From Pararhizobium sp. IMCC3301 (GTDB taxonomy: Bacteria; Pseudomonadota; Alphaproteobacteria; Rhizobiales; GCA-2746425), in assembly GCF_030758315.1 (NCBI RefSeq), contig NZ_CP132336.1, forward strand, positions 2,385,001-2,449,000: a stretch of 64,000 nucleotides of DNA. Reading direction: 5' to 3'. The position numbers and the translations under genes were made by a program. Of the stretch, positions 2,339 to 51,045 are shown one piece after another. Position 1 is the first letter of the stretch, and every line of letters starts with the position of its first letter. The notes under the pieces were generated by a model. It made no database searches and was not told the DNA's origin. It worked only from the letters and a program-made list of their open reading frames with translations.

Positions 2339-3715
2339 TCATTTGCCGATACAGAATTCAGAAAAGATATGGCCGAGAATATCCTCAACGTCAATCCGGC
2401 CAAGGATCTGCCCCAGGGCATCTGAAGCAGTTCGCAGATACTCGACCCGGATCTCCAGCGGCAGATGGTCATCCCCCGCCTGCGTCAGCGACTCCACGCA
2501 ACTTTGCAAAGCCAGCCTGTGCCGGGTGCGCGTGATCAGTGGATTGTTGCGGTTTTCCCCACTGGTCAAATCAGAAACGGAACCGAATCGAATAAGTGCA
2601 GCAATCAGCGCATCCAATCCTCGCCCATCCTTGATCGATACACCAATTTCGTCAGCCGCTTCAACCTCAAAGGTTCCACCTGTCCGCGCCGTATCGATCA
2701 AATCATATTTGGTCCGCACCTTCAGAACAGGTGGAAAATTAGTGTCACTCTCCGGGTCAAATACGACATGAGACCCCGGTTGATCAGCCGGGCAGAGCGA
2801 CAGAACCAGATCCGCTTGACGTGCAGCTTCTTCCGCGCGCCGCATGCCTTCCTGTTCAATTGTATCCTCGCTTTCCCGCAGCCCAGCCGTATCCGAAAGG
2901 ATGACCAGTTGATCCCCGAGATTGAGCGACACCGTTAAAACGTCCCGTGTAGTCCCTGGAATCTCGGTAACAATGGCAACATCCTTTTGTGCAAGGGCAT
3001 TCAACAGACTGCTCTTTCCGGCATTAGGTAGACCAATGAGAACCACCCGCAATCCATTACGGATGATTTCGCCGCGCCGGCCATCATTCAGATGCTGTTC
3101 GATCTGCCGCGCCAGTGACAGCGCATCTTCAGAGACGTATTCCGCGACGGAACCTGGTACGTCTTCTTCATCGGAAAAGTCAAAATCTGCCTCGACAGAA
3201 GCGCGAAGGATCAACAGGGACTGCCGCCAGCTATCATACAGCGTGCGCAGACTACCGGAATACTGACTCAGGGCTTGGCGGCGCTGGCTTTCCGTCTGTG
3301 CTGCGAGCAGATCACCAAGGCCTTCGATCTCGGTCAGATCCATCTTGCCATTTTCAAACGCCCGGCGGGCAAATTCCCCCGGTTCTGCCATCCGCCAATT
3401 GCGCAAGGTACCCAATTGCTGAAATACGGCATTCAGGACTGCAGCGCTGCCATGAAGATGGAACTCTACCACATCTTCACCGGTGAAACTGGCGGGTCCA
3501 GGAAACCAGAAGACCAGCGCCTGATCTATGGGATCGCCGTCGCTGTTGCTGAGGACGGTCAAGTGCGCCCGCCGCGGCACAGTTTGTTTCACGTGAAACA
3601 CTTCAAGCGCGGATGCAGCATCACGGCCACTGATGCGCACAACCGCCACGCCACTTGGCGTAGCGCCACTGGCCAGGGCAAAAATCGTATCTCGGAACAA
3701 TGCGGTATCAGCCAT
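2339..3715 (-). CDS. mnmE: tRNA modification GTPase MnmE (TrmE)
   Basis: MnmE is the K+-stimulated GTPase that works with MnmG on wobble U34 and binds a formyl-folate derivative through its N-terminal domain. The P-loop GLPNAGKSS is at about residues 228-236, followed by the GTTRD switch II region and DTAGLRE. The protein ends in the family's hallmark CIGK motif with the catalytic-site cysteine. An in-frame GTG lies one codon upstream at 3718; the ATG at 3715 gives the usual MADT-type start. The coding sequence also carries a perfect 16-bp parS site (3585-3600), which encodes FHVK in a poorly conserved part of the N-terminal domain. Confidence 0.96.
   Translation of the reverse strand: MADTALFRDTIFALASGATPSGVAVVRISGRDAASALEVFHVKQTVPRRAHLTVLSNSDGDPIDQALVFWFPGPASFTGEDVVEFHLHGSAAVLNAVFQQLGTLRNWRMAEPGEFARRAFENGKMDLTEIEGLGDLLAAQTESQRRQALSQYSGSLRTLYDSWRQSLLILRASVEADFDFSDEEDVPGSVAEYVSEDALSLARQIEQHLNDGRRGEIIRNGLRVVLIGLPNAGKSSLLNALAQKDVAIVTEIPGTTRDVLTVSLNLGDQLVILSDTAGLRESEDTIEQEGMRRAEEAARQADLVLSLCPADQPGSHVVFDPESDTNFPPVLKVRTKYDLIDTARTGGTFEVEAADEIGVSIKDGRGLDALIAALIRFGSVSDLTSGENRNNPLITRTRHRLALQSCVESLTQAGDDHLPLEIRVEYLRTASDALGQILGRIDVEDILGHIFSEFCIGK
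3585..3600. promoter_or_regulatory. parS centromere site inside mnmE
   Basis: The sequence TGTTTCACGTGAAACA matches the conserved bacterial parS palindrome at all 16 positions. ParB binds such sites and loads SMC to segregate newly replicated origins. It lies wholly inside mnmE, about 3.6 kb left of the putative oriC. A second site lies about 3.1 kb to the right. The identity is read directly from sequence; ParB occupancy is inferred. Confidence 0.9.
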
Positions 3716-5815: not shown

Positions 5816-6850
5816 CTAACCCGCACGAACCTGTTCAATCATCGCTGATACGTGATCCACCGGGGTTTCCGGGGTAATACCATGTCCCAGATTGAACACA
5901 AACCGCGCACCTTTGGCAGCGTCCAGAATATCGCTGATCCCCTCATGCAGGGCGGTACCTCCAGCCACCAGCCGGGTCGGATCAAGGTTACCCTGCAAAA
6001 CCACACTGGAACTCAACTGCTGTTTCGCCAATGCCATCGGATAGGTCCAGTCAAGCCCGACACAATCAATCCCGGTCTCCCTCACGTAACGCTCATAATG
6101 CAGAGAAGCGCCCTTCGGAAACCCAATCACGGGCGTGCCGGGATGACGTGCTTTCACACCGGCAACAATCTGTTTCATTGGCTCAAGGCAAAACTCGATA
6201 AAATCAGCTTCTCCAAGAATCCCCGACCAGCTGTCAAACACCTGAACCGCATCTGCGCCGGCCTCAATCTGTGCCGACAGATACTCAATCGACATCGCGG
6301 TCAGCACTTCAATCAGATCACGAAACTCCGCCCTGTATTTATGAACAAAAACCCGTGTCGGAGCCTGATCCGACGTCCCCCGCCCAGCCACCATATATGT
6401 CGCAACCGTCCAGGGCGCACCGCAGAAACCAAGCAATGTGGTCTCTGCCGGCAACGCAGCGCGAATATCACTGACCGCCTGCAAAACCGGTTGCAGGTGA
6501 TCCAAAGCCCCATTCAGGCTAAGCGCTACAATTTCTCCAGGATTGATCGGATCCAGCCGCGGCCCGACACCACTTTCAAAACTGACTTTGCGGCCCAACG
6601 CATCCGGCACAACCAGAATGTCGGAAAACAGGATTGCGCCGTCAAACCCAAACCTGCGGATCGGCTGCAGCGTGACTTCTTTGGCAAATTTCGGCGAATA
6701 GCACAAATCCAGAAATGAACCCGCTTCCGCTCTGGTCTTCCTGTATTCAGGCAGATATCGTCCAGCCTGACGCATCATCCAGATCGGAGGCGGCCAAAGC
6801 GCATCGTCTTCAGGGCCACTTTGTAAAACCTGCAGCAGGCACTTGTTCAT
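5816..6850 (-). CDS. hemE: Uroporphyrinogen decarboxylase HemE
   Basis: HemE decarboxylates the four acetate side chains of uroporphyrinogen III to give coproporphyrinogen III. The 344-residue product has the two family signatures: PIWMMRQAGRYLPEYR near the start, and a glycine-rich GFCGAPWTVATYMVAG segment. The frame opens back to 6949, but the ATG at 6850 gives the normal start (MNKCLLQVL); the extra 33 residues have no family counterpart. It is the first gene left of the putative replication origin, the position hemE holds next to oriC in Caulobacter, Sinorhizobium and other alphaproteobacteria. Confidence 0.96.
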   Translation of the reverse strand: MNKCLLQVLQSGPEDDALWPPPIWMMRQAGRYLPEYRKTRAEAGSFLDLCYSPKFAKEVTLQPIRRFGFDGAILFSDILVVPDALGRKVSFESGVGPRLDPINPGEIVALSLNGALDHLQPVLQAVSDIRAALPAETTLLGFCGAPWTVATYMVAGRGTSDQAPTRVFVHKYRAEFRDLIEVLTAMSIEYLSAQIEAGADAVQVFDSWSGILGEADFIEFCLEPMKQIVAGVKARHPGTPVIGFPKGASLHYERYVRETGIDCVGLDWTYPMALAKQQLSSSVVLQGNLDPTRLVAGGTALHEGISDILDAAKGARFVFNLGHGITPETPVDHVSAMIEQVRAG

Positions 6851-6956
6851 AGATGATCCGATAGGCCACCGGGGCAGTGGCAAAGGTTTGAATTTCCGAC
6901 TTGCGACAGCGTTCTGTCTAGCACAGGCGCTGATCGTTTCATTCCCCAAAAATTCC

Positions 6957-6971
6957 CTAATAAAGTCTTAA
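6957..6971. promoter_or_regulatory. CtrA-box-like site, one mismatch
   Basis: CTAA-N7-TTAA differs by one base from the CtrA consensus TTAA-N7-TTAA. It lies at the hemE-proximal edge of the putative origin, inside the most AT-rich block, where CtrA could block origin firing or tune hemE transcription. Confidence 0.5.
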
Positions 6972-7125
6972 TTTCTTATTGTTTATATTATTTGTCTGTG
7001 AGTAACGGGGATTCAATGACACTCACACTTTTCCCGGCTCTTACCTGAAATTATCTCATCTTTCAAAGCGGCTATAACCCCAGCCTGAATTCCCCGAACA
7101 CTGAGGAGATCAAATTTCACAATCA

Positions 7126-7140
7126 TTAACAAAACCTTAA
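7126..7140. promoter_or_regulatory. CtrA box, perfect
   Basis: TTAACAAAACCTTAA matches the alphaproteobacterial CtrA recognition sequence TTAA-N7-TTAA exactly. In Caulobacter, CtrA bound to such sites at the origin represses replication initiation. Binding here is inferred from the match and its location. Confidence 0.7.
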
Positions 7141-7163
7141 CCGCCACTTCAAATCGAATAAAT

Positions 7164-7172
7164 TGTGGAATA
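7164..7172 (+). promoter_or_regulatory. DnaA-box-like site
   Basis: TGTGGAATA matches the reverse complement of the DnaA box consensus TTWTNCACA at 8 of 9 positions. It lies between the two perfect CtrA boxes. Weak alone, but plausible in an origin. Confidence 0.4.
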
Positions 7173-7230
7173 AAGTTGGACAAACCTGCACAACTCTTTA
7201 TCCCCGCACTTCATCCGGTGAAACCGGGAA

Positions 7231-7239
7231 TTTTACACA
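7231..7239 (+). promoter_or_regulatory. DnaA box
   Basis: TTTTACACA matches the TTWTNCACA DnaA-box consensus at all nine positions, 13 bases before the second perfect CtrA box. This spacing could let CtrA and DnaA compete. Confidence 0.55.
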
Positions 7240-7251
7240 GAGCACAATTTG

Positions 7252-7266
7252 TTAATCTATTATTAA
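7252..7266. promoter_or_regulatory. CtrA box, perfect
   Basis: TTAATCTATTATTAA is a second exact TTAA-N7-TTAA match. It is followed by CC, a common extension of CtrA half sites. Confidence 0.7.
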
Positions 7267-7354
7267 CCATCGGCAACAAGCTGCGCCGCTGGACATTTCG
7301 CCAGGACTTCTCCAAAACTCATTCATGATTCGTCAACAGGGTTCGCCCACAGTT

Positions 7355-7363
7355 TGTGGATAT
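7355..7363 (-). promoter_or_regulatory. DnaA-box-like site in front of ppsR
   Basis: Read on the minus strand, ATATCCACA differs from the strong DnaA box TTATCCACA at one position. It ends 5 bases before the proposed GTG start of ppsR, so it would also sit in that gene's ribosome-binding region. Confidence 0.5.
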
Positions 7364-7368
7364 CTTAC

Positions 7369-8205
7369 GTGAAAAAATCCACCTTCTTCCATCTGCACCT
7401 GGTCTCGGACGCCACCGGTGAAACTTTGATCAATGTCGGCCGTGCGGCTGCCGCGCAATATGATTCCGCCCAGGCGCGGGAGCATATCTACACTATGGTG
7501 CGCAGCGAAAAAGATATCACGAAGGTGGTAGCCGAAATCGAAACCGCACCGGGCATCGTCCTGTATACTCTGATCGAGCCGGAACACGCAGCCATGCTGG
7601 AGGAGAGCTGCCGCGAGCTCGGCGTTCCGGCGCTGTCGGTTCTGGACCCGATTCTAAGCTTGTTTCAGACCTATCTCGGAGCCAAATCAGCCAAGCGGGC
7701 AGGGGCGCAACATGCGCTTGATACCGAGTATTTCCGCCGCATCGATGCTCTGAACTTCACCTTGTCCCATGATGATGGCCAGCTCAGCAACGAGCTTCAT
7801 GAAGCTGACGTCATCCTTCTGGGAATCAGCCGCACATCGAAGACACCAACCTCGATTTATCTGGCAAATCGCGGCATCAAGGCGGCCAATATTCCGCTCG
7901 TTCCCGACGTTCCGCTGCCTGATGCCCTCGACAAGATGTCAACCGCGTTCATAGTCGGACTGATTGCCAGTCCCGACCGGATCGTGCAGATTCGCCAGCA
8001 CCGACTTTTGTCGATCAATGCGGATACGAAGGACACAGCCTATATCGACAAACACGCAGTGGCCGAAGAAATTGCCCTGACGCGCCGGCTGTGTGCCCGC
8101 CGTGGCTGGCCGATTATCGATGTCACGAGGCGATCGATCGAGGAAACCGCCGCCGCAATTCTGACGCTGTACAACACCCACAAGACAAGACAGGAAACAC
8201 CATGA
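7369..8205 (+). CDS. ppsR: Pyruvate,phosphate dikinase / PEP synthase regulatory protein (DUF299 family)
   Basis: This family contains bifunctional serine/threonine kinases and Pi-dependent phosphorylases that switch PEP synthase or pyruvate,phosphate dikinase off and on. The 278-residue product begins with the family motif FHLHLVSDATGETL. Its nucleotide-binding loop GISRTSKTPTS is at about residues 152-162. I chose the GTG at 7369: the next in-frame upstream start is a TTG at 7354, which would add five residues the family lacks. It is the first gene right of the putative origin. Its TGA overlaps the next gene's ATG (ATGA), so translation with maf is probably coupled. Which enzyme it controls cannot be told from the window. 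Confidence 0.92.
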   Translation: MKKSTFFHLHLVSDATGETLINVGRAAAAQYDSAQAREHIYTMVRSEKDITKVVAEIETAPGIVLYTLIEPEHAAMLEESCRELGVPALSVLDPILSLFQTYLGAKSAKRAGAQHALDTEYFRRIDALNFTLSHDDGQLSNELHEADVILLGISRTSKTPTSIYLANRGIKAANIPLVPDVPLPDALDKMSTAFIVGLIASPDRIVQIRQHRLLSINADTKDTAYIDKHAVAEEIALTRRLCARRGWPIIDVTRRSIEETAAAILTLYNTHKTRQETP

Positions 8206-9717: not shown

Positions 9718-10358
9718 ACGATCTCAAAACCGGGCCTCAGTCAAATCCCCCTGCCGGGCCGGGCCGGCAGGGTGGCACAACTGTGCTCGGTCTGACCGGC
9801 TCCATCGGCATGGGTAAATCAACAACGGCGGAGCTGTTCCGGCAGGAAGGCGCTGCGGTATTCGATGCCGACGCAGCAGTGCATGAGCTGTATTCCGGAC
9901 CTGCCGTTTCGCCGGTCGCTGCCAGATTTCCCGATGCGCTCCGGGACGCAACGATTGATCGGGAGGCATTGGCCCGCCTTGTTGTCGGCGATCAGCAGGC
10001 TTTGTCCGATCTGGAAGCAATCATTCACCCTCTGGTGCGCCAGGCGGAGCTTGATTTCATCGCGCAGCACAAGAGCCAGGGCACAGAATTCGTCGTTCTC
10101 GATATCCCCCTTCTGTTTGAAAGCAATGGCGATGAGGTGTGTGACAAGACGGTGGTGGTCAGCGCACCGGCAAGGGTCCAGCAGACCAGGGTTCTGGCAC
10201 GCAAAGGCATGACCAAGGCGCGGTTCGACCAGCTCCTGTCCCGGCAGATGAGCGATGCGGAAAAGCGCGCCAGAGCGGATTTCATTGTATCCACCGACAA
10301 GGGTCTGAAGGATGCAAAGCGCCAGGTTCTCGACATTTTGAGCCAGTTGCGCAAATGA
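9714..10358 (+). CDS. coaE: Dephospho-CoA kinase CoaE
   Basis: CoaE phosphorylates the ribose 3'-hydroxyl of dephospho-CoA, the last step of CoA synthesis. The P-loop GLTGSIGMGKST is at residues 26-37. The family's DADAAVHELY and VVLDIPLLFE motifs are present. At 214 residues it carries about 20 extra N-terminal residues, low in complexity and rich in Pro/Gly. The ATG at 9714 overlaps the aroE stop. The stop codon lies inside a parS-like sequence. Confidence 0.94.
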   Translation: MNDLKTGPQSNPPAGPGRQGGTTVLGLTGSIGMGKSTTAELFRQEGAAVFDADAAVHELYSGPAVSPVAARFPDALRDATIDREALARLVVGDQQALSDLEAIIHPLVRQAELDFIAQHKSQGTEFVVLDIPLLFESNGDEVCDKTVVVSAPARVQQTRVLARKGMTKARFDQLLSRQMSDAEKRARADFIVSTDKGLKDAKRQVLDILSQLRK

Positions 10359-10371
10359 TTCACGTGAAACA
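10356..10371. promoter_or_regulatory. parS site at the end of coaE
   Basis: TGATTCACGTGAAACA matches the 16-bp parS consensus at 15 positions (A for T at position 3). Its first three bases are the coaE stop codon. It lies about 3.1 kb right of the putative oriC and mirrors the perfect site in mnmE. Confidence 0.8.
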
Positions 10372-11385: not shown

Positions 11386-12996
11386 ATGGATACCGAACTG
11401 CCGGACCAGCATGCGGACAGACCTTCAAAGGAACTGGCAAAGGAGTTGGCCAGACCCGGTGCCGAGAGAACACCTATGGTTGGGCCTGCAGATAGCGGCC
11501 CGTCCGAACTTTCCGGCAAAAAGCGGATCAGACCGGTGTTTCTGCTCCTGCAGGGCATCATTGCAATCGCCATCGTATTTGGCGCCGCGCTGATCATGCT
11601 GCAGATGCTGACCGAAAAAGCCGCCCCGATGCAGCGCCCGGTGCGTGAACAGGTTTTTACGGTGGAGACAATTGCGCTGGAACGCGGCAACTTTCAGCCC
11701 GAAATTTCAGTCTTTGGAACGATCATTGCCGGTAATATTATCGAGCTGCGCAGCGAATTATCCGGCCCTTTGATCTCGGTCAATCCTTTGCTTCGCAGCG
11801 GTTCCGTCCTCAGCGCCGGTACAGAAATCGCAAGCATCGACCCATTTGAGTATCAGACGGCTCTCGCAGAAGCCGATATTGATATTCTCGATTCAGAGGC
11901 CAAATTGCTGGAAGCGCAGGCCCGGTTGTCGGCGGTCAAAGCCGATGTGACGAATACCGAAGCCCAGCTGGAACTGGCTGAACGGGATCTGGAACGGGCG
12001 CAAGCCTTGGTCGCTAAAGGATCGGCAACCCGTCAGACAGCTGACCAGCGCCAGCAGGCGCTTCTGCAGATCAGGGCAGCGCTTGATGGCGCCCGCTCGA
12101 ATCTGAAGGTGGAAGAAGCAAAACTTGCGCAGCAGAAGGCAGCCATGGACCGGCTCGCGCTGAAGCGCACACGGGCACAACGCAACCTCGATCAAACCGT
12201 TCTGAAAGCACCTGCCGATGCAGTTATCGACACCGAATCGATGACTCTCGGGCAGATGGTCACCGCAAACCAGGTCGTCGCCGAATTGCTCGATCTGTCA
12301 GCATTTGAGGTCCGCTTTACCCTGTCCGACGGGCAATATGGCCGGCTCACACGCCAGGCCGATGACCAGAACGGCCAACAGACCGGTCAACAAATAGGAC
12401 AACTGCCCGGAACCCGGATAAAGGTGCGGTGGACTGTCGGCTCCCGCCAGGAAACAGTCCCGGCAACGATCAGCCGGACGGCATCGACCATTGCTGCGGA
12501 TCGCGGCGGTATCACTCTTTTTGCTGCCCTTGACCCATTGCCGGCAGAGACGGATTTGCGGCCAGGCGCTTTTGTTGAGGTCAGCCTGCCAGATCAGGTT
12601 TACGCCAATGCGATCAGGGTTCCCGAAGCCGCATTGTATGATGAACAGCGCATTTATGTTGCCGAAGAGGGCCGGCTGCGCTCGGTGCCGGTTTCGGTGC
12701 TGACGTTTTCCGGAACGAATGTTCTTCTGCAAGCCGATCCGGCCGATCTGGCCGGTGGCGCAAGGGTCCTGACAACCCGCATCGCCGAGGTTGGGGACGG
12801 ACTGCGCGTTCGCGAAGCCGGCAGCGCAGCGCCGGAAACAGAGCGCGGCGGCAGAGGCGAGGGTGCCGGCAGAGGCGAGGGTGCCGGCAGAGGCGAGGGT
12901 GCCGGCAGAGGCGAGGGTGCCGGCAGGGGCGAGGGCGGCCGCAGAGGTGAAGGTGGTCGTCCTCGGGGCGGCCACGGCGGCGGGTCAAGATTATGA
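11386..12996 (+). CDS. RND efflux periplasmic adaptor (membrane fusion protein)
   Basis: This HlyD/AcrA-type adaptor links an inner-membrane RND pump to an outer-membrane channel. One membrane anchor lies near residues 50-70, followed by a lipoyl/barrel-sandwich hybrid and a long coiled-coil hairpin of about 110 residues rich in Glu, Gln and Ala. The tail carries six 6-residue repeats of the GRGEGA type before a Gly/Arg-rich end (repeat tract 12850-12957). I chose the ATG at 11386 for its GGAG nine bases upstream; ATG 11377 and 11341 are in frame. Its stop overlaps the permease start. No outer-membrane channel gene is nearby. Substrate unknown. Confidence 0.88.
   Translation: MDTELPDQHADRPSKELAKELARPGAERTPMVGPADSGPSELSGKKRIRPVFLLLQGIIAIAIVFGAALIMLQMLTEKAAPMQRPVREQVFTVETIALERGNFQPEISVFGTIIAGNIIELRSELSGPLISVNPLLRSGSVLSAGTEIASIDPFEYQTALAEADIDILDSEAKLLEAQARLSAVKADVTNTEAQLELAERDLERAQALVAKGSATRQTADQRQQALLQIRAALDGARSNLKVEEAKLAQQKAAMDRLALKRTRAQRNLDQTVLKAPADAVIDTESMTLGQMVTANQVVAELLDLSAFEVRFTLSDGQYGRLTRQADDQNGQQTGQQIGQLPGTRIKVRWTVGSRQETVPATISRTASTIAADRGGITLFAALDPLPAETDLRPGAFVEVSLPDQVYANAIRVPEAALYDEQRIYVAEEGRLRSVPVSVLTFSGTNVLLQADPADLAGGARVLTTRIAEVGDGLRVREAGSAAPETERGGRGEGAGRGEGAGRGEGAGRGEGAGRGEGGRRGEGGRPRGGHGGGSRL
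12850..12957 (+). repeat. 18-bp tandem repeat in the adaptor's C-terminal coding region
   Basis: Four identical 18-bp units GGCAGAGGCGAGGGTGCC (12850-12921) are followed by two diverged copies to 12957. Each unit encodes GRGEGA, so copy-number changes would keep the frame. The tract lies 36 bp upstream of the permease start. Confidence 0.9.
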
Positions 12997-48892: not shown

Positions 48893-49204
48893 TCAGGCCT
48901 CAACAACACTGCGCCGTTTCTTGCCGATCAGAATAAACAGCAATGCGATAATGCCCACTACCAGCCAGGTCGGCGCCTGCAGGATGGAGATCATCACCGG
49001 GTCCCACAGATATGGGTGCACATTGCGCTGAATAACAGCCTGCGCCAGATTGAGAGAACCGGAATGCAGTTCAAACCAAGTGCTGCCTGCCGGGGTAACG
49101 ATCAGAGCGCCACTGGTGATGGAACGGGCGCCGTCAAGCACCAGCGCGACAAAGGCACCGGCAAACAGCCAGAAGCCGAGAATGCGGAATATAAAACGTA
49201 TCAT
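48893..49204 (-). CDS. Small inner-membrane protein of unknown function
   Basis: This is a 103-residue protein with two membrane segments (IRFIFRILGFWLFAGAFVALVL near the start; PTWLVVGIIALLFILIG near the end) and a basic C-terminus (GKKRRS). Between them is a conserved-looking polar region, STWFELHSGSLNLAQAVIQR. The ATG at 49204 has AGGACC upstream; an in-frame ATG at 49231 is less likely. I know of no function. It stands upstream of msrA on the same strand. Confidence 0.75.
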   Translation of the reverse strand: MIRFIFRILGFWLFAGAFVALVLDGARSITSGALIVTPAGSTWFELHSGSLNLAQAVIQRNVHPYLWDPVMISILQAPTWLVVGIIALLFILIGKKRRSVVEA

Positions 49205-49323
49205 GTGAGGTCCTGTTTGGTTTTCAGGCATATAGACCGCCGCCCTTTTATCAGCAAATCAAGCGTCTTCACAGTTGCGCGAGAAAAAACATCTGCGACG
49301 GCCTAAAAGATAGGCTCTGCACC

Positions 49324-49351
49324 TTGCGCAAGGCCTTGTGATCAGTATAAA
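49324..49351 (+). promoter_or_regulatory. Possible promoter of tRNA-Ser
   Basis: TTGCGC (49324-49329), a 16-base spacer and TATAAA (49346-49351) lie about 45 bp upstream of the tRNA. The -10 element is good and the -35 weak. Confidence 0.35.
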
Positions 49352-49397
49352 GCTCTCGCGCTGATTAAACGGTCCGGTCTCCGGCACGTTTCCTCAA

Positions 49398-49487
49398 GGA
49401 GAGGTGGCCGAGTGGTCGAAGGCGCACGCTTGGAAAGCGTGTAGGCGGGTAACTGTCTCCAGGGTTCGAATCCCTGTCTCTCCGCCA
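49398..49487 (+). tRNA. tRNA-Ser (anticodon GGA)
   Basis: This is a 90-base class II tRNA with encoded CCA. The acceptor stem GGAGAGG pairs with TCTCTCC before discriminator G. The anticodon loop TTGGAAA (anticodon GGA at 49432-49434) is closed by CACGC/GCGTG. A long variable arm and the GGTTCGAATCC T-arm follow. It reads UCC and UCU serine codons. The 3' ends of such tRNAs are common integration sites, and the accessory region begins just after it. Confidence 0.97.
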
Positions 49488-49495
49488 CGCACCCT

Positions 49496-49523
49496 TATAA
49501 CTCATTGTTTCAAATGAGTTATA
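49496..49523. terminator. Hairpin immediately downstream of tRNA-Ser
   Basis: TATAACTCATT and AATGAGTTATA form a perfect 11-bp stem with the 6-base loop GTTTCA, starting 8 bases after the tRNA CCA. It probably terminates tRNA transcription, although no T-run follows. Confidence 0.55.
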
Positions 49524-49543
49524 TTGAGCAGCAAGTCCGCTGA

Positions 49544-49684
49544 TCAATCCAATTCAACCGCGACATACCGAGCTGTTTGAGCATCTATCTCAGCCATAGT
49601 CTGGGAAAGTAGTAGGGCGCGCTGACGGATTGTGAAGTTTGAAATACCCTCAGGTCGACACTTATAAAGGTTATGCCTCGGCAT
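49544..49684 (-). CDS. Short open frame of unknown nature (doubtful)
   Basis: This is a 46-residue frame starting MPRHNLYKCRPEG and ending AQTARYVAVELD. The frame stays open upstream of the ATG into the IS3 remnant. I recognise no family and no good ribosome site. It could be a fragment of an inserted element or chance. Confidence 0.2.
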   Translation of the reverse strand: MPRHNLYKCRPEGISNFTIRQRALLLSQTMAEIDAQTARYVAVELD

Positions 49685-49730
49685 CCTGGTTCTAAACCAG
49701 GCTAAATCCGCTCCGCGACACACCGGTACA

Positions 49731-49886
49731 TCACAGTTGGTGCCTGGTGAAGTAGGCTGCGGCCTTTTTCAAGATGGCGCGCTCTGCTTTGAGTTGTGCG
49801 ACTTTCCGTCTCAGGCTGCGACGCTCCTCATCGTTCGGCTTCAATTGGCCTTCGCCGGGAAAGACATCCGGCTCGTTCGATCCAAA
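49731..49886 (-). pseudogene. IS3-family transposase OrfA, C-terminal remnant
   Basis: Translated on the minus strand, this 51-codon stretch reads ...DVFPGEGQLKPNDEERR followed by SLRRKVAQLKAERAILKKAAAYF. This is the leucine-zipper end of an IS3-type OrfA (typical pattern LRRExxxLxxERDILKKAAAYFA). An in-frame TAG at 49887-49889 cuts it off upstream, and no orfB integrase core follows downstream. It marks past IS insertion next to the tRNA. Confidence 0.75.
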
Positions 49887-50007
49887 CTACTGCACCCATC
49901 TGCGCCTGCGTGATAGTCCGTGCAGAGAAAGAGCCATTTTTGGTCAGTGGGAACCATGCTGGAGAGCAAAGCCAAGACAGACGGCCAAACAAATTTTGGT
50001 ATCTGCA

Positions 50008-50415
50008 TCATCCTTTACGCAGCGATTTTTCGATATCGTCTGTTGGCGAGTTGATCAGTGTTTTGGACAACTCCATGATGATCTTGTCTGTCACTTCTTG
50101 ATGCAACTGAGGTCGCATTTCTCCCAGCGTATCGGGGTCGGCCACTAGCACCAGCTTGTCGAATTTTCCAGCATGAGCTTCCTTGTAGAGATGGTTTGAT
50201 AAAATTTTGGAAAACGTTGCTTCATTGTTTTCCTGGTCCGAATGATCCGGTGGCATTTTGCCTGAAGGTCCTTCGTCTGCCATATCGCCGGGGGTCATTG
50301 TCCTTTCGGCTTTAAGTTTGATGGTGCCCTGTTTGCCCTCATTGCGAAAGAATTTGGCTTCTTCGCCAGTTGCGATAACGATCAGTGCACCGTGTGGAAT
50401 TAGTTGGTCAGTCAT
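50008..50415 (-). CDS. Host attachment family protein (PF10116-like)
   Basis: This 135-residue protein resembles the 'protein required for attachment to host cells' family first named in Agrobacterium. Features are the N-terminal HGALIVIATGEEAKFFRN, the central KLVLVADPDTLGEMRPQLH and the C-terminal VTDKIIMELSKTLINSPTDDIEKSL. The family resembles archaeal release factor-like (baeRF) folds; the true biochemical role is unclear. The ATG at 50415 has GGAG ahead. It lies 21 bp after the PG-binding-like gene and probably shares its EcfG-type promoter. Confidence 0.75.
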   Translation of the reverse strand: MTDQLIPHGALIVIATGEEAKFFRNEGKQGTIKLKAERTMTPGDMADEGPSGKMPPDHSDQENNEATFSKILSNHLYKEAHAGKFDKLVLVADPDTLGEMRPQLHQEVTDKIIMELSKTLINSPTDDIEKSLRKG

Positions 50416-50436
50416 GTGATTTCTCCGCTCCAAGTG

Positions 50437-50712
50437 TTATTTTGTCAATTTAACTTTGCCGTCTTGACCCAATCCGTTGATCCGTTCGTACGCCATTATC
50501 GCTGACGTTGTGTTTGGACCATCCTGACCGTCGACAACACTTGGCGAAGCTACCGCGTAATCGAGCAAAACTTGTAGTTTAATTGTAGCAGCTAATGACA
50601 TTTCATCGATCGGCTCGGCTGCATTAATATCATCGACATTAAGCGTATTAGCATACGAAACCGAAGGGTACGCGACGCCTGCCGGCACAGTCATAAAACT
50701 TTTCATGATCAT
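50437..50712 (-). CDS. Small exported protein with a peptidoglycan-binding-like domain
   Basis: This is a 91-residue protein. The second half (LQVLLDYAVASPSVVDGQDG, then TTSAIMAYERINGL and DGKV) follows the PG_binding_1 pattern LQxxL...PGxxDGxxGxxTxxAIxxFQ...GL.xDG. The first 24 residues look like a weak signal sequence. Starts at 50712 or 50706 (MKSFMTV) are both possible; neither has a strong ribosome site. An EcfG-type promoter match lies 19 bp upstream of the start. It forms a two-gene unit with the host-attachment family gene. Confidence 0.6.
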   Translation of the reverse strand: MIMKSFMTVPAGVAYPSVSYANTLNVDDINAAEPIDEMSLAATIKLQVLLDYAVASPSVVDGQDGPNTTSAIMAYERINGLGQDGKVKLTK

Positions 50713-50730
50713 TCATTTCTATCTGGAACA

Positions 50731-50755
50731 AACGCATCAGGAGCTTGATCGTTCC
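50731..50755 (-). promoter_or_regulatory. EcfG (general stress sigma factor) promoter, perfect match
   Basis: On the minus strand GGAAC (50755-50751), 16 bases, then CGTT (50734-50731) fits the alphaproteobacterial EcfG/RpoE2 consensus GGAAC-N16/17-CGTT exactly. Transcription would start near 50724, just ahead of the 50712 start codon. This puts the PG-binding-like and attachment genes in the general stress response, by inference. Confidence 0.7.
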
Positions 50756-50969
50756 ACCTGACACAACGCTTCACTCCTCCCGGACTCCTCCCAACAAATC
50801 CTGGAATTTGCTTTCATGTTTTACATCGAGAACGAAAACACCGCCGTTTCAGTCAATACCTACGACAAGTACCTGATCGAGATTGGCGACAATAGCTCCG
50901 CCAATAGATTTCCCAGAAAAGCTTTCCGATGACGTCTTCACGCACAAGCGAACTCGCCTAATTTGATAT

Positions 50970-50995
50970 GGAACCATTTACCTCATGTAACAATT
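50970..50995 (+). promoter_or_regulatory. EcfG/RpoE2-type promoter, looser match
   Basis: GGAACC starts at 50970, and 19 bases after GGAAC a TT lies at 50994-50995. This fits the Sinorhizobium RpoE2 pattern GGAAC-N18/19-TT but lacks the CG before TT. It points to the plus-strand cluster that begins at 51046. Confidence 0.45.
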
Positions 50996-51045
50996 TAGTG
51001 AACAGCGGGCGCGCACATGTCGCTCCGACAATTGAGGAAAGTCCC

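Follow-up and report, generated by a model that had tools for sequence, protein, structure and literature searches.

Does the gap between hemE and a ppsR-like gene in this genome contain the chromosomal replication origin, and do its CtrA boxes gate replication? A sequence-only reading of the region had proposed both. The window that we analyzed, that is, the whole stretch of DNA under study, spans 64 kb and corresponds to bases 2,385,001–2,449,000 of a genome that forms a single contig with a length of 4,583,537 bases. The order to which the organism belongs is probably Hyphomicrobiales.

The hemE–ppsR Gap and Its Flanking Genes

The gap and its immediate surroundings are laid out as follows, in window coordinates.

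5816–6850, minus strand: hemE, uroporphyrinogen decarboxylase, directed leftward; above the cut-off of TIGR01464 (NCBIfam)
6851–7368 (genome 2391851–2392368), no strand: putative chromosomal origin, the hemE–ppsR intergenic gap, 518 bp
6958–6997, no strand: AT-rich block, candidate unwinding element; 85% AT, overlapping CtrA box a
7309–7363, no strand: block conserved in the genus, with a DnaA-like site at its end; 35 of 55 columns invariant
7369–8205, plus strand: ppsR-like gene (DUF299/COG1806 kind) of the PPDK/PEP synthase regulator family, directed rightward; above the cut-off of NF003742

The two flanking genes diverge around the gap, hemE on the minus and ppsR on the plus strand, and both this arrangement and the AT-rich block agree with what had been read from the sequence. 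The ppsR-like gene scores above the cut-off for the PPDK/PEP-synthase regulator subfamily and below that of the PpsR equivalog model NF049928. NCBIfam cut-offs are also passed by mnmG, mnmE, rho, and dnaQ; the neighboring maf falls below its own. The AT content of the gap is 57%, against 43% for the window; it is 41–47% in 19 of 20 sampled stretches and 58% in the remaining one.

Some compositional features lie at a distance from the gap. Stretch L014 (genome 2,070,001–2,090,000) has a GC content of 42%, against 53–59% in the other 19 sampled stretches, and may be an island, 300 kb from the origin. Within the window, a tRNA-Ser gene (49398–49487) stands beside a dip in GC to 49.5% (49001–51000), a possible integration site, and about six 18-bp tandem repeats at 12849–12955 give a Gly/Arg/Glu-rich tail to an ORF that we presume to be an efflux adaptor.

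Evidence That the Gap Is Probably the Chromosomal Origin

Several lines of evidence, namely synteny, the parB/parS neighborhood, and a coarse strand asymmetry, lead us to conclude that the hemE–ppsR gap is very probably the chromosomal replication origin. First, hemE and COG1806/DUF299 genes also flank the origin of Caulobacter crescentus, Cori, in the available text of three papers (PMC1914354, PMC4468827, PMC8959179). Second, two parS sites in the window lie on either side of the gap.

3585–3600, no strand: parS, exact TGTTTCACGTGAAACA, left of the gap
10356–10371, no strand: parS with one mismatch, right of the gap (ppsR side); a like site lies on the ppsR side in genomes G001 and G003

We take the site at 10356–10371 to sit at the end of a coaE-like ORF. 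Genome-wide there are three near-consensus parS sites (up to two mismatches), 7.2 and 3.5 kb to the left and 3.2 kb to the right of the center of the gap. The same neighborhood is found in all 15 complete genomes, this one included, where 36 parS sites (up to one mismatch) all lie within 28 kb of ppsR. Twelve other complete genomes were compared for the side on which the sites fall: ten carry them exclusively on the hemE side and G130 exclusively on the ppsR side, while G118 has them on either side. parB and a ParA-like ORF lie left of the window, beside mnmG; ParB is above a domain cut-off and the model match of the ParA-like ORF is below its cut-off. The dnaA gene is 315 kb from the gap.

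Third, the chromosome arms differ in the sign of their GC skew. Eight of nine 20-kb stretches between 460 kb and 2.32 Mb are negative, the ninth being +0.0007, and of eleven such stretches running from 2.53 Mb through the contig end to 250 kb, nine are weakly positive and two weakly negative; the skew of the window itself is −0.016. Over the contiguous 2.2–2.6 Mb, the cumulative-skew minimum falls at 2,416,921, which is 25 kb to the right of the gap. The curve hardly changes between 2.417 and 2.60 Mb, and the minimum is accordingly poorly located. It had been predicted that the skew would switch at about 7.1 kb of the window; this holds only coarsely, for the arms, and not for the local minimum. 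One paper, in the part available, notes that the GC-skew shift may be spread over a sizeable region and that not every element of hemE–COG1806 origins need occur in each genome (PMC1914354). Among the first 100 listed of 238 forward KOPS matches, 48 fall in the first 388 kb, 17 between that point and the gap, and 35 between the gap and 2.98 Mb. Near the gap the orientations are mixed, with 10 reverse and 4 forward to the left and 2 reverse and 7 forward to the right (Fisher p 0.036). Skew and KOPS were thus too coarse to map the origin finely, and the earlier assignment of an origin to this gap stands on the synteny, the parB/parS sites, and the coarse asymmetry.

CtrA Boxes in the Gap

Four matches to the CtrA pattern TTAA-N7-TTAA occur in the gap.

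6957–6971, no strand: CtrA box a, one mismatch; exact in G004
7126–7140, no strand: CtrA box b, exact; one mismatch in G001–G004
7137–7151, no strand: CtrA box with one mismatch, overlapping box b
7252–7266, no strand: CtrA box c, exact; exact also in G001, G002, and G003

The sequence-only reading had listed two exact boxes and one near-exact box, which are indeed present at 7126, 7252, and 6957, and had left out the second one-mismatch box at 7137. Counted from the first base of the gap, boxes a, b, and c start at 107, 276, and 402. The exact pattern occurs at 24 places in the 4,583,537-base genome, against 90 for the reversed control, and two of these are in the gap, their starts 126 bases apart; by simple proportion, about 0.003 would be expected in 518 bases. 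Only 1 of 500 dinucleotide shuffles reached the exact-box count of the gap, which is 4 rather than 2 in this comparison, as both strands of the palindromic pattern are scored.

Conservation within the genus points in the same direction. We aligned the gap with those of four congeners, making five species with pairwise identities of 47–83%, each of which has at least one exact box. Boxes a, b, and c together have 24 half-site columns, 20 of which are invariant, against 146 of 518 across the gap, and random placement of three boxes gave at least 20 invariant columns in 2 of 20,000 trials, a test that somewhat favors the boxes since they were picked by motif in one of the sequences. As far as sequence comparison can tell, the CtrA boxes of the gap look selected, and both this footprinting within the genus and the survey of the order described below back the CtrA sites first proposed.

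DnaA and IHF Matches

7231–7239, plus strand: DnaA site, exact TTWTNCACA (TTTTACACA); the least conserved of the four across the genus, with 3 of 9 columns invariant
6997–7005, minus strand: DnaA-like site with one mismatch (TTACTCACA); 5 of 9 columns do not vary within the genus
7164–7172, minus strand: DnaA-like site with one mismatch (TATTCCACA); TGTGGA shared by four of the five genus members
7355–7363, minus strand: DnaA-like site, one mismatch (ATATCCACA); the best kept, 7 of 9 columns, and exact (TTATCCACA) in G001

The single exact TTWTNCACA site had been correctly identified, and its near matches number three (6997, 7164, 7355) rather than the two reported. As a cluster, these few matches are weak and do not reach significance: they were equaled in 47 of 500 shuffles (exact) and in 36 of 500 (up to one mismatch). 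The 64-kb window contains three exact TTWTNCACA sites, all between 7231 and 8575, two of which are within the maf ORF. The alphaproteobacterial form of the DnaA site, YBRTCCACA, has no exact match in the gap, nor does the IHF consensus WATCAN5WTR match there; a stricter IHF form gives three one-mismatch matches in the gap, a number that 30 of 500 shuffles equaled.

Distribution of CtrA Boxes across the Order and Class

The order draw covered 51 families. A ppsR match, and hence a gap, was lacking in 21 of 140 genomes in one of the two rounds of the order draw and in 48 of 153 of the class draw. Outside the genus, 117 genomes of the order had a ppsR match; 104 gaps were fetched and 98 used after 6 without a hemE match had been dropped. 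The corresponding numbers for the class outside the order are 102 genomes, 87 gaps fetched, 9 dropped, and 78 used. In family f12, the sole ppsR match of genomes G015, G061, G092, and G120 is very divergent (33–36% identity) and is perhaps a different or replaced copy.

Exact TTAA-N7-TTAA boxes occur at 41 sites in 37 of the 98 order gaps, leaving 61 without one, whereas the fifteen remaining spacings in the range 0–15 gave between 0 and 6 sites apiece. Shuffled gaps yielded a mean of 0.8 gaps with a box and a maximum of 2 in 20 rounds, and the flanking sequence of the surveyed loci contains one exact box in 201,476 bases. Order gaps with and without a box are alike in median GC and length. 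At least one genome has a box in 16 of the 40 families outside the window's genus, and 22 of the 41 boxes fall within the middle fifth of their gap. Under the one-mismatch rule of PMC1914354, as given in the available text, the N7 spacing yields 61 sites, spread over 44 of the 98 order gaps, and other spacings yield 3–17; in the class N7 has only 22 sites against 6–15. In the rest of the class, 11 exact boxes are distributed over 10 of 78 gaps, where shuffles give 1.7 gaps with a box. With their orders pooled, the class gaps are therefore also enriched in boxes.

To follow box presence among relatives, we used a quick single-gene tree, built with a simple model from 102 HemE proteins, drawn from the genus and the order; four gaps were omitted because their HemE was too short, including a single one from the order. 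Box presence requires 17 changes on this tree, or at least 13 by its well supported branches, compared with 32.5 when labels are shuffled (none of 500 shuffles was as low), although near relatives help this clustering. One supported group of 20 rows is entirely without a box. Box presence in the order is clustered yet patchy, the box-bearing gaps including near relatives, so that the counts are not independent events, and the numbers of changes do not separate gain from loss.

Only 1 of 32 CtrA boxes in the order gaps lies within 25 bp of YBRTCCACA, against 20% for random placement, and no pattern of CtrA boxes overlapping DnaA boxes was found in these gaps. The overlap with DnaA sites known from Caulobacter is thus not a general rule in the order. 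YBRTCCACA itself is present in 68 of 98 order gaps, and on the plus strand it gathers 25–50 bp before ppsR and 75–125 bp from hemE, a clustering that suggests a fixed DnaA layout.

How CtrA Would Act at the Origin

Two components of a putative CtrA relay are encoded in the genome. A CtrA homolog of 233 residues is above its NCBIfam cut-off, with residues 1–118 aligning gap-free to CtrA chain 4qpj_C, and a ChpT-type protein (PF10090 above cut-off) is encoded about 2 kb from ctrA. On the chromosome, ctrA is roughly equidistant from the gap and from the KOPS switch near 0.39–0.5 Mb, an arrangement described for Rhizobiales in the available part of PMC8116508; this placement and the 51 families drawn for the order underlie its probable assignment to Hyphomicrobiales.

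We favor, with a probability of roughly 60%, the hypothesis that the gap is the origin and is held shut by CtrA~P at three boxes until CtrA~P falls. The CckA–ChpT–CtrA relay would phosphorylate CtrA, and CtrA~P on the three spaced TTAA-N7-TTAA boxes would keep the origin closed; once CtrA~P drops, DnaA, bound to the weak boxes in the gap, would open the AT-rich block at 6958–6997. Box a overlaps this block, just downstream of a promoter-like match aimed into hemE, and would be the likeliest point of repression by CtrA~P, with boxes b and c placed among the DnaA-like sites. Caulobacter CtrA is described, in the text available, as keeping DnaA off the origin (PMC8116508, PMC8959179). Since the boxes of this order do not lie beside YBRTCCACA, repression, if CtrA exerts it, would more likely work by preventing opening or transcription toward hemE than by occupying such a DnaA box. 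We infer CtrA binding and repression, DnaA binding, and unwinding at the AT block from the anatomy and conservation of the sequence, the parS neighborhood, and the CtrA and ChpT-type homologs, and on this analysis CtrA-gated replication in this organism is plausible.

Alternatively, the gap could be the origin while its boxes, as promoter or operator elements, control the transcription of hemE, ppsR, or a small RNA within the gap, without directly gating replication. Precedent comes from Caulobacter, where, in the part of PMC8959179 available, CtrA can repress hemE transcription and the origin contains a small RNA gene (CcnA) flanked by CtrA boxes. In this genome, 19 of the 22 other exact boxes lie between genes according to a simple ORF call, 18 of the 19 have an ORF start within 200 bp, and a promoter-like match points toward hemE at 7016–6987. 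However, three boxes spaced as these are would be ill-suited to a single promoter, and the preference for the middle fifth of the gap in the order is likewise at odds with promoter sites. Promoter-like matches in 6700–7500 are near chance (2 against 0.9), and a small RNA in the gap is without Rfam support, no family reaching its gathering score. We therefore regard this alternative as possible but doubtful.

The neighbors of the other exact boxes, 20 of which were searched against Pfam with 18 giving a match, include a diguanylate cyclase, a D-Ala-D-Ala ligase, a penicillin-binding transglycosylase, a lytic transglycosylase, and outer-membrane proteins, as well as an aminotransferase and a transporter. 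They are compatible with a CtrA regulon but do not test it. Two further close pairs of exact boxes occur (L251, 1473 and 1516; L253, 1410 and 1579), one near a DUF1465 gene and one between acyltransferase and penicillin-binding transglycosylase genes.

That the boxes of the origin are mere relics, or that CtrA binds them to no effect, is improbable. Such a reading would accommodate the patchy distribution, with 13 or more changes on the HemE tree, and the report of a Sinorhizobium meliloti origin without CtrA boxes (PMC4433202, in the part available), but it fits poorly with half-site columns conserved far above background in five species whose gaps are only 47–83% identical. Still less probable is an origin at another site, with the gap a divergent promoter region of the usual kind. 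The displaced skew minimum and the distant dnaA gene might suggest this, but the synteny, the placement of parS here and in 14 other complete genomes, and the flatness of the skew curve speak against it.

Relation to Known Origins

The chromosomal origin of S. meliloti also lies on the hemE side, and the sequence-only reading had invoked this together with Caulobacter. The comparison with Caulobacter holds beyond synteny: in the available text, Cori likewise combines several spaced TTAA-N7-TTAA boxes with an AT-rich region, mostly weak DnaA boxes, and a linked par locus (PMC1914354, PMC4468827, PMC8959179). Cori has five CtrA sites, where the gap studied here has two exact and two near ones, and unlike Cori this gap has no IHF consensus and no CtrA box over a DnaA match, and dnaA is 315 kb away. 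The comparison with S. meliloti holds for location but not for CtrA, as that origin is reported, in the available part of PMC4433202, to be without CtrA motifs and not bound by CtrA; depletion of CtrA raises DNA content there by a likely indirect route.

Other systems resemble this gap in part. In Hyphomonas neptunium, which probably belongs to another order, a CtrA ChIP-seq signal is described at a site adjoining the origin (PMC7200025, in the part available); binding was measured there, whereas the sites here are predicted. Wolbachia, Rickettsia, and related bacteria have hemE-adjoining origin gaps with predicted CtrA, DnaA, and IHF sites, the CtrA sites numbering zero to seven under a rule that permits one mismatch, and Wolbachia is without the hemE–COG1806 pair (PMC1914354, in the part available).

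The hemE–COG1806 origin type is already known, with CtrA boxes in Caulobacter. A 2015 review states, in the text available, that CtrA sites in origins have not been seen beyond the Caulobacters and possibly Rickettsia (PMC4468827), and our literature search, which mostly excluded subscription journals, found no report of CtrA boxes in origins across this order. Given that generalization, and S. meliloti without boxes, what is new here is the distribution across the order. The sequences contradict the published generalization, in that 37 of 98 order gaps contain an exact box, with half-site pairs concentrated at N7 and box presence clustered on the tree. Whether direct CtrA control of the origin is a widespread trait of the order, repeatedly gained or lost, with S. 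meliloti on the side without it, rather than a peculiarity of Caulobacter, we consider evenly balanced. The order-wide distribution of boxes merits a binding test, and close relatives with and without boxes provide a test set for how a cell-cycle regulator is wired to, or unwired from, the control of replication.
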